DNA of 64,000 nucleotides, taken from contig CACITE010000004.1 of NCBI GenBank assembly GCA_902589505.1, forward strand, positions 1 through 64,000, written 5' to 3'. Positions 53,178 to 55,359 of the stretch are shown in pieces (within the stretch, counting starts at the first letter, position 1; every line of letters starts with the position of its first letter). Made by a program: the position numbers and the translations under genes. Under the pieces are notes generated by a model that saw only the letters and a list, made by a program, of their open reading frames with translations, did not search any database and was not told where the DNA came from. This DNA is from an uncultured Pelagibacteraceae bacterium (lineage in GTDB: Bacteria > Pseudomonadota > Alphaproteobacteria > Pelagibacterales > Pelagibacteraceae).

Positions 53178-54107
53178 ATGAAAATTCTAGGAATTGGAAA
53201 TGCCATAGTGGATGTTATTTGTAAAGTGAAAGATAATTTTATAACAGATAATGGATTAATTAAAAGCACCATGAAGCTTGTAGATGAAGCCGAATTTAAA
53301 AAATTACTATCTAATTTAAAGATTGAAGAAACAGTCTCTGGGGGCTCTGTAGCAAATTCTATTGTTGGCCTGTCACAACTTGAAAATAAGGTTGGATTTA
53401 TTGGAAAAGTGAACGATGATGATCTTGGTCAAAAGTACGAAGATGGATTAAAAAAAGAAAAAGTAGAATATTTCTATTCTAAAAAAAGGGAAAAACTGTC
53501 TACGGGAACTTGCCTAATATTAATTACACCTGACTCGGAAAGGACCATGTGTACTTTTCTTGGAACAGCGGGAAAAATAAATGAAAATGATATCGATATT
53601 AATGCAATCAAAAATAGTGAAATGATTTTTTTAGAAGGATATTTATGGGATGAAGGAGATCCTAAAAAGGCTTTTGATAAAGCAATCAAAAATTCAAATA
53701 AAGCCGCAATGTCTTTGTCAGATTTATTTTGTGTAGAAAGACATAAACCTCATTTTTTAAATTTAGTAAAAAATAATTTAACTATTACTTTTGCTAATGA
53801 GCAAGAAATTTTATCTTTAATTAATGTTAAAAGCTTTGAGGAAGTTATTGCATTTGGTAAACAATTAGAAAAATTAATAGTTATCACTCGTGGAGAAAAG
53901 GGAAGTGTTGCTATTTTAAAAAATGAAGTAATTGAGTGTGATAGCAAAAAAAATTTAAAAATTGTTGATTTAACAGGCGCCGGTGATCTTTTTGCTGCAG
54001 GATTCTTACATGGTTACGTTAATAAATTATCTATAAAAGAAAGCTTAGAAAAAGGAACTGAAATGTCTTCAAAAATAATTCAAAAAATTGGAGCTAGGTT
54101 AAACTAA
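53178..54107 (+). CDS. PfkB-family sugar/nucleoside kinase (adenosine kinase-like)
   Basis: 309 residues. N-terminal MKILGIGNAIVDVIC, the SGGSVANSIVGLSQL substrate loop, FIGKVNDDDLGQKYEDGL and the C-terminal active site DLTGAGDLFAAGFLHGY (catalytic Asp270) are typical PfkB features. The best-known homologues at this place (after nth) are annotated as adenosine kinase, but the substrate is inferred. Its 3' end overlaps the ArfA-like gene on the other strand by 14 bases. Confidence 0.87.
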   Translation: MKILGIGNAIVDVICKVKDNFITDNGLIKSTMKLVDEAEFKKLLSNLKIEETVSGGSVANSIVGLSQLENKVGFIGKVNDDDLGQKYEDGLKKEKVEYFYSKKREKLSTGTCLILITPDSERTMCTFLGTAGKINENDIDINAIKNSEMIFLEGYLWDEGDPKKAFDKAIKNSNKAAMSLSDLFCVERHKPHFLNLVKNNLTITFANEQEILSLINVKSFEEVIAFGKQLEKLIVITRGEKGSVAILKNEVIECDSKKNLKIVDLTGAGDLFAAGFLHGYVNKLSIKESLEKGTEMSSKIIQKIGARLN

Positions 54108-54219
54108 ACTTTTTTCTTCTTTTATAACTTCCTTTACCTTTCTTAGGCTTAACAATACGTGTTTTATATTTTGCAGAAAATAAATCTTTAGCAATATAAT
54201 TTCGTGATTTTTTTTTCAA
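54094..54219 (-). CDS. arfA: ArfA-like alternative ribosome-rescue factor (short ORF)
   Basis: A 41-codon frame starting with TTG at 54219 and ending with TAG at 54094-54096. The product is basic, LKKKSRNYIAKDLFSAKYKTRIVKPKKGKGSYKRRKKFSLT read in parts; the core VKPKKGKGSYKRR matches the ArfA signature KGKGSY followed by basic residues. ArfA recruits RF2 to free ribosomes stalled on mRNAs without a stop codon. AGGA lies 8 bases upstream of the TTG. Its TTG overlaps the TGA of the response regulator (TTGA), so translation is likely coupled to it. The 3' end overlaps the PfkB kinase by 14 bases. Confidence in the family is good but not certain because of the length. Confidence 0.72.
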   Translation of the reverse strand: MKKKSRNYIAKDLFSAKYKTRIVKPKKGKGSYKRRKKFSLT

Positions 54220-54854
54220 ATATAATATCCTTTGTTATTATTTTTAATAAAATTTTTATCCCCAAATTTCTCTAAAATTTTTTTTCTTAATCGATGAATA
54301 TGTGTTTCAACTGTATGCGTTTCTGTTTCTGTAGAATAATTCCAAACTTTTTCCAAAACTGAATTTTTACTTATAGGTTTACTATTTTCGCTAAATAAAA
54401 TAAGAAAATTAATTTCTTTTTCAGATAATTGAAGCTCTAACTGATCTTTTTTGATTTTACGTTCATTTTTATCTATTGTGTAATCGCTCAACTGAATTAG
54501 AGAATTCTTTTTAAACTCATACTTTGTTATTAAGATAGTAATGGTTTTTTTTAATTCTAGCATTCTAACTGGTATATCTAATTTTGCCATTAAGTCATCT
54601 AACTTTAAGTTTTTTAAATCTGAAGATTTAGCAATTAAAATCACAGGTATATTTTTTGATCTAAATTCTTTGAAAAAATTTTTGTTTGCTTGAGTTACAA
54701 AAAACAGAACTAAACGGCCGTGTCTTACTGCCTCTTTTATACATAAATCTAAATCATCATAATGAATAGTTTGGTAATTAGAAAATAACTTTGATTCATT
54801 TATAATTTCTAAAAAGATTTTATTACCAAAAATTGATATAGTTGAATTACCCAT
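54216..54854 (-). CDS. OmpR-type winged-helix regulator with degenerate receiver
   Basis: 212 residues. The C-terminal winged-helix domain (residues about 120-212) is clear: LQLSEKEINFLILFSEN, THTVETHIHRLRKKI, and NKGYYI at the end. The N-terminal domain has the length of a receiver but not the phosphorylation site: the usual DD pair and the central Asp at the end of strand 3 (here RLVLFFVTQA) are missing, and KP is IP in DIPVRML. So it is a pseudo-receiver, likely controlled by something other than a kinase. It is followed by the ArfA-like gene with coupled start, and diverges from the L,D-transpeptidase gene across only 13 bases. Confidence 0.82.
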   Translation of the reverse strand: MGNSTISIFGNKIFLEIINESKLFSNYQTIHYDDLDLCIKEAVRHGRLVLFFVTQANKNFFKEFRSKNIPVILIAKSSDLKNLKLDDLMAKLDIPVRMLELKKTITILITKYEFKKNSLIQLSDYTIDKNERKIKKDQLELQLSEKEINFLILFSENSKPISKNSVLEKVWNYSTETETHTVETHIHRLRKKILEKFGDKNFIKNNNKGYYI

Positions 54855-54867
54855 TAAATATAATTTT

Positions 54868-55359
54868 ATGAATATTATAATAAAAAATCATTTACTCTTA
54901 TATAGAGGTTATAAATTAAAATGTTGTGTTGGTAAATCCGGTATAAAAAATTTTAAAAAAGAGGGGGATTTAGGTACTCCTAAGGGAGTTTTTAACTTGG
55001 GTTTGCTTTACTATAGGAAAGATAGAAATCAATATTTTAAAACTAATTTAAATAAAAAAATAATAAAAAAAAATATGGGCTGGTGTAATGATATTAGAAG
55101 TAAAAAATATAATAAAGAAATAAGTTTCCCTTTTAAATATTGCGCAGAAAAGCTTTTTAGAAAGGATAAAATTTACGATATTTTTGTGAATATAAAGTAT
55201 AATCAATCTCCAGTGGTGAAGGGTAAAGGAAGTGCAATCTTCTTACATCTAGCAAACAAAAATTACAAACCAACAAAAGGTTGCATAGCTATTAAGAAAA
55301 AAGATTTTTTAAAAATATTACCATTAATTACCAAAAATACAAAAATATCGATTAGGTAA
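54868..55359 (+). CDS. L,D-transpeptidase family protein (YkuD fold)
   Basis: 163 residues. The catalytic motif is HLANKNYKPTKGCIAI with the active-site cysteine in TKGC and the histidine upstream, matching the H-X14-17-[ST]-X-G-C pattern of YkuD domains. Such enzymes cross-link peptidoglycan peptides or attach lipoproteins. No signal peptide or membrane segment is seen, which is unusual for a wall enzyme; a cytoplasmic or novel role is possible. It starts 13 bases from the divergent regulator and its TAA overlaps the yggS stop by 8 bases (TTAGGTAA). Confidence 0.8.
   Translation: MNIIIKNHLLLYRGYKLKCCVGKSGIKNFKKEGDLGTPKGVFNLGLLYYRKDRNQYFKTNLNKKIIKKNMGWCNDIRSKKYNKEISFPFKYCAEKLFRKDKIYDIFVNIKYNQSPVVKGKGSAIFLHLANKNYKPTKGCIAIKKKDFLKILPLITKNTKISIR

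Follow-up and report, generated by a model that had tools for sequence, protein, structure and literature searches.

The arfA frame and its neighbours

We analysed a 64,000-nucleotide stretch of DNA from an uncultured Pelagibacteraceae bacterium (contig CACITE010000004.1 of assembly GCA_902589505.1, positions 1 to 64,000), referred to here as the window. A 41-codon frame on its minus strand, arfA, lies between a winged-helix response-regulator-like gene and a convergent PfkB-family kinase gene (Table 1). It starts with TTG at 54219-54217, ends with TAG at 54096-54094 and encodes the peptide (M/L)KKKSRNYIAKDLFSAKYKTRIVKPKKGKGSYKRRKKFSLT, while the plus strand of 54094-54219 is interrupted by stops. 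An earlier note on this DNA had proposed such a TTG frame, omitting its strand, as a hidden ArfA-like rescue peptide with the motif KGKGSY, and the features it listed were all confirmed in the sequence: the motif itself, the TTGA overlap with the stop of the regulator, the AGGA 8 nt upstream of the start (in the context AAAGGA-TATTATAT-TTG) and the 14-nt overlap with the end of the kinase gene. No Rfam family was found in the window at the gathering threshold.

Table 1 Features of the arfA locus in the window.
Feature	Position	Strand	Basis
arfA, 41-aa minimal ArfA homologue	54094..54219	-	TTG start, TAG stop; PF03889, conservation, selection
TTGA, arfA start overlapping the TGA stop of the regulator	54216..54219	-	Read from sequence; translational coupling inferred
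AGGA, Shine-Dalgarno-like, 8 nt before TTG, within the regulator gene	54228..54231	-	Read from sequence
Upstream gene, winged-helix (Trans_reg_C) response-regulator-like	54216..54854	-	PF00486, 49.3 bits; synteny
PfkB-family kinase, convergent, tail-to-tail 14-nt overlap with arfA	53178..54107	+	Pfam; overlap read from sequence
YkuD-type L,D-transpeptidase gene, divergent, conserved neighbour	54868..55359	+	Pfam; synteny

The architecture was sampled at 105 loci, which gave 95 with distinct frames. Counting as the upstream frame any ORF of at least 90 codons ending at the arfA start, we found a 4-nt NTGA overlap between this start and the upstream stop at 57 of the 95 distinct loci (28 TTG, 20 ATG and 9 GTG), a 1-nt overlap at 15, other spacing at 14 and no such upstream frame at 9. 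The TTG start and the overlap are therefore not peculiar to the window, and the coupling to a regulator that had been proposed from this one locus recurs widely. At most loci the upstream frame is homologous to the regulator of the window and lies on the same strand. Similarly, at 80 of the 84 loci with both neighbours, the stop of the kinase (any opposite-strand ORF of at least 150 codons ending at the arfA end, with homology taken from synteny) and the end of arfA were no more than 20 nt apart (median +1). The order regulator-arfA-kinase with the divergent YkuD gene is widespread, not universal. Mean identity within the genus was 79% for ArfA, 81% for the kinase and 61% for the fast-diverging regulator, in which the winged helix was the only Pfam match over the cut-off and no receiver domain was recognised by Pfam in the N-terminal half.

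Family membership, conservation and spread

The window peptide matched the Pfam ArfA family PF03889 with 30.6 bits (E 2.2e-7) against a curated cut-off of 25.5, so that a family profile bears out the ArfA identity first suggested by the motif. PF03889 was the sole family matched; searches of this 41-aa peptide against the NCBIfam models, PF00472 (RF-1 domain, ArfB) and DUF7230 (PF23876) gave no match. PF03889 was likewise the only family matched by the 24 aligned SAR11 copies, each at E<=0.01. Searching with phmmer against the E. coli ArfA chains of ArfA-RF2-ribosome structures gave a gap-free alignment with an identical KKGKGSY at a weak E of 0.02-0.05, so membership depends on the profile.

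In the phmmer register, residues 9-37 of the SAR11 peptide correspond to residues 16-44 of E. coli ArfA, and the peptide therefore covers E. coli residues 8-48; the shortest relatives reach from about 10 to 44. SAR11 ArfA lengths are about 33-41 aa, and the window copy is, as the earlier note held, smaller than E. coli ArfA (41 versus 72 codons), with the SAR11 stop codon falling at the equivalent of E. coli residues 44-48, soon after the motif. Cryo-EM models contain 46-48 residues of E. coli ArfA, the last 17-18 residues of which are dispensable (PMC8012679, excerpts). SAR11 would thus appear to encode about the ordered core of ArfA and then stop. The C-terminal lysine-histidine motif described in the same excerpts cannot be present, because the SAR11 peptide has no histidine.

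Residues K26, K27, G28, K29, G30 and S31 are invariant in 24 of 24 aligned copies, as are N7, A10, D12, L13 and K17, and conservation across this alignment is highest in the basic tail. In E. coli, an N-terminal hydrophobic patch of Leu19, Leu24 and Phe25 contacts RF2 and Ala18 is sensitive (PMC5378476, excerpts). In the gap-free phmmer register, itself a weak match, Leu19, Leu24 and Ala18 align with Asp12, Lys17 and Lys11, and only the aromatic member of the patch is retained (Phe25 as Tyr18); a register shift of one residue would put Ala10 opposite Ala18.

Selection was analysed on the 29-codon core of 16 of the 17 genus sequences, one being left out for N. Mean pN was 0.099 and mean pS 0.567, giving a pN/pS of 0.17, which is approximate because synonymous sites are near saturation. 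Differences at codon positions 1, 2 and 3 numbered 526, 297 and 1197, and the nonsynonymous share of differences was 0.47, compared with 0.80 in a random-placement null (minimum 0.69, 2000 draws). arfA is a conserved protein gene under strong purifying selection. The earlier note had staked its proposal on the frame being conserved and on synonymous and nonsynonymous sites not changing equally, and both were observed.

With the single sequence as query, 25 of 60 genomes were found to carry arfA. They comprise 17 of the 23 genomes of the genus (including the window's own) and 8 of the 13 from other genera of the family; none of the 24 sister-family genomes gave a match. The SAR11 ArfA profile, built from 24 of these 25 matches, detected the gene in 204 of the order's 297 genomes and in 116 of the 150 that are of high quality (>=90% complete, <=5% contaminated), in line with the expected conservation in related genomes. 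A scan of named genomes yielded at least 426 confirmed relatives, the best 80 of which all belong to Pelagibacteraceae, Pelagibacterales or Candidatus Pelagibacter. The cultured Pelagibacter HIMB058 (L098) is one of the carriers. In wider samples of the class, PF03889 was matched in 10 of 385 genomes and the SAR11 profile, in another sample, in 7 of 240; ArfA is therefore rare in Alphaproteobacteria outside SAR11. The rare ArfA-like genes of other Alphaproteobacteria (L131-L134) have longer C termini in some cases. From sequence comparison we conclude with high confidence that the window ORF is a real, overlooked, minimal ArfA of SAR11 (Pelagibacteraceae).

The gene is also missing in places. 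Nine genomes of family f1 with no profile match, outside the genus and g5, were checked for loss (G024, G060, G062, G063, G068, G074, G114, G125 and G137). The close kinase was present in eight of them, and arfA was not found in the kinase flanks of these eight genomes, even with the HMMER filters off. The regulator side was read in five of the eight, and there the regulator lies directly next to the kinase in every case. arfA has been lost cleanly in places. Its clean absence from several near-complete relatives means that it is dispensable in some lineages and, since eight arfA-negative genomes keep the kinase locus, with the regulator there in the five read, coupling is not obligatory for the regulator. 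The arfA-negative loci L215-L222 come from complete or near-complete SAR11 genomes that retain the kinase locus.

A pattern-based scan of viral contigs gave at least 228 confirmed relatives. Among 80 of these (L135-L214, IMG/VR), all 80 loci carry an ORF with the KGKGS motif, which in 72 ends 3-24 residues past it; eight (L171, L173, L174, L175, L179, L184, L185 and L193) are longer fusions of about 124-150 aa in total, with an ArfA-like N terminus and a shared C-terminal domain (...GNYTKPTMRKRLFERIKAGGKGG..GQWSARKAQMLA...). PF03889 exceeded its cut-off in both of the two fusions scanned, and the rest of the protein has no Pfam name. A tblastn search of the 41-aa peptide against the phage collection gave no match, which is uninformative because the low-complexity filter may mask the lysine-rich query. 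No ArfA frame was found in the stretches examined of HTVC010P, Mosig EXVC030M, HTVC008M and HTVC034P, the four cultured pelagiphages most similar to two ArfA-bearing viral contigs. Divergent relatives of 35-44 aa in g5 and the sister family f2 (L232-L234, L236-L239) keep NP[IV]A..LRT.K[FY] and lack GKGSY. By hhalign these relatives matched the SAR11 ArfA profile with a probability of 96.6, and one g5 copy reached the DUF7230 (PF23876) cut-off (27.0 bits versus 27); judging by these profiles, DUF7230 may be related to ArfA and carry a modified mRNA-channel tail.

Rescue context, regulation and competing explanations

Alpha-type tmRNA was identified in 50 of 60 Pelagibacteraceae genomes (49 over the cut-off) and in 24 of the 26 high-quality ones. 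The window genome, an assembly that is 75% complete, encodes SmpB (180.9 bits); no tmRNA was recovered from it, including when it was searched alone. The earlier note's idea of a backup to trans-translation is thus upheld at the family level and by SmpB here; the tmRNA it presupposes was not recovered from the genome itself. An RF-1 domain search gave no ArfB-like match in any of the 60 SAR11 genomes, returning RF1- and RF2-sized frames; extra partial RF-1 domain matches in G293, G334 and G001 are unlike ArfB. Across the class, 20 of 58 genomes gave an ArfB-like match (58-88 bits) in the same search and the control was therefore positive; one of these matches (G376) lies in a short frame, perhaps a fragment of a release factor. 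The other 38 genomes also gave no ArfB-like match, so the lack of ArfB is not peculiar to SAR11; many small-genome relatives in this control likewise lack it. Four arfA-negative genomes (G024, G060, G062 and G063) have tmRNA and no ArfB. The minimal ArfA seems to stand in for the ArfB used by many other Alphaproteobacteria.

The putative partner is also in place. Aligned to its E. coli counterpart over 340 residues, RF2 of the window genome keeps SPF, GGQ, the DIGWG switch-loop Trp319 and the equivalents of Val198 and Phe217, and Trp319, Val198 and Phe217 have roles in the ArfA partnership (PMC5378476, excerpts).

In E. coli, a stem-loop makes the arfA mRNA non-stop, so that trans-translation represses arfA (PMC3989581, PMC8012679, both in part). 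We examined 115-nt windows around the stop at 26 chosen loci of the 95, and no hairpin at the arfA 3' end exceeded those of shuffled sequences (mean z +0.27, range about -1.8 to +1.8); no E. coli-type stem-loop giving a non-stop mRNA was found at these 26 loci. With moderate to good confidence, E. coli-type regulation is absent from SAR11 arfA. SAR11 ArfA would be translated from an ordinary stop-terminated mRNA, and its output would be set by the coupled regulator cistron. Since a normal stop codon ends the message, SAR11 ArfA, unlike E. coli ArfA, would not be destroyed by trans-translation.

We consider it likely that the ORF is the minimal ArfA ribosome-rescue gene of SAR11, with RF2 recruitment and escape from tmRNA feedback as inferred properties; the rescue activity itself is proposed with moderate confidence, from homology. 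The trigger would be a ribosome that has reached the end of a non-stop mRNA. Its empty mRNA channel would take up the basic KKGKGS[FY]KRKK tail of ArfA, the N-terminal part of ArfA would recruit and open RF2, and RF2 would then free the peptide. SAR11 ArfA would act alongside tmRNA and in place of ArfB, at a level following the regulator operon and translational coupling.

Three other explanations were weighed against this reading. A chance frame in AT-rich sequence might be suspected from the mere 41 codons, the TTG start and the overlaps with two genes; it is hardly conceivable given the conservation, the profile match, the codon-position signal and the conserved start and stop architecture, and was rejected because the nonsynonymous share lies below the null minimum. 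The arfA mRNA might instead be trimmed to a non-stop form by an antisense or RNase III event with the kinase transcript, after which trans-translation would repress it. The tail-to-tail interlock seen at 80 of 84 loci means that convergent transcripts could pair across the arfA stop into a duplex that RNase III might cut, and E. coli arfA itself overlaps the convergent mscL, with antisense control reported (PMC10070815, in part). However, the 26 loci have no intramolecular 3'-end hairpin and, because SAR11 genomes are very compact, the overlap may be mere packing; we regard such trimming as unlikely.

A further candidate is an ArfA-derived basic protein that binds the 30S mRNA channel without RF2 and might, for instance, occupy empty ribosomes in stress or hibernation. 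The better conservation of the basic tail and the lack of conservation of Leu19, Leu24 and Ala18 in the gap-free register (residues named in the excerpts of PMC5378476) would fit this, as would the g5 and f2 relatives, where the N-terminal half is kept while GKGSY is lost, so that the halves can evolve separately. Yet the invariant N7, A10, D12, L13 and K17 in 24 copies mean that the RF2-side half is also constrained, RF2 retains the ArfA-contact residues and, ArfB being missing, the rescue role is vacant. A factor independent of RF2 is accordingly quite improbable.

A broader reading of the minimal rescue gene is that SAR11 swapped ArfB for a tmRNA-escaped minimal ArfA as a standing second line of rescue, which phages share or exchange; this may well be so, though we stop just short of calling it probable. 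The same reading, put forward just as tentatively, has a hard-coded length near what E. coli attains only by cutting its mRNA, and production driven by coupling. If the swap is true, lineages that lost arfA rely wholly on tmRNA, and a minimal form, in some cases fused, circulates in marine phages, so that host and virus share or exchange a rescue factor. It predicts that arfA-positive SAR11 can do without tmRNA and that for arfA-negative members (such as G024, G060, G062 and G063) tmRNA is essential. SAR11 are among the most abundant ocean bacteria, their very small natural ArfAs (about 33-41 aa) point to the working core of the protein, and they present an ArfA without the hairpin underlying tmRNA feedback in E. 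coli.

Comparison with known rescue systems

Among 2,376 Alphaproteobacteria, a 2024 survey recorded arfA in none and arfB in 2,022 (PMC11633108, Table 1), a 2023 paper states that arfA is not present in this class (PMC10070815, in part), and a review confines it to some of the beta- and gammaproteobacteria (PMC8012679, excerpts). Since SAR11 has arfA, the accepted distribution of rescue systems needs correcting. Our literature search, with most subscription journals outside its coverage, found no description of a chromosomal arfA in SAR11, and a search on rescue factors encoded by marine viruses returned nothing. ArfB (YaeJ, PF00472), the tmRNA backup in most Alphaproteobacteria by the counts of that survey table, is a protein unrelated to ArfA with a GGQ of its own, and is the factor without a match in the 60 SAR11 genomes.

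E. coli ArfA (YhdL) shares with the SAR11 protein a gap-free core, an identical KKGKGSY, a basic C-terminal tail and an RF2 with the switch-loop Trp. It differs in its 72 codons, SAR11 lacking about seven N-terminal residues and everything after residue 48; in its non-stop mRNA repressed by trans-translation (PMC3989581, PMC8012679, both in part), where SAR11 has a real stop and no hairpin; and in its convergent neighbour, mscL rather than a PfkB kinase. BrfA of Bacillus (PMC8012679, PMC11633108) and ArfT of Francisella are likewise described as small rescue factors that recruit a release factor, and BrfA is also produced from a non-stop mRNA (PMC11633108, in part). Another ArfA linked to SAR11 is gp30 of pelagiphage HTVC027P (PF03889), annotated as such and expressed in infection (PMC12753301, in part); it is a phage gene, whereas most SAR11 host copies occupy a fixed locus on the chromosome.
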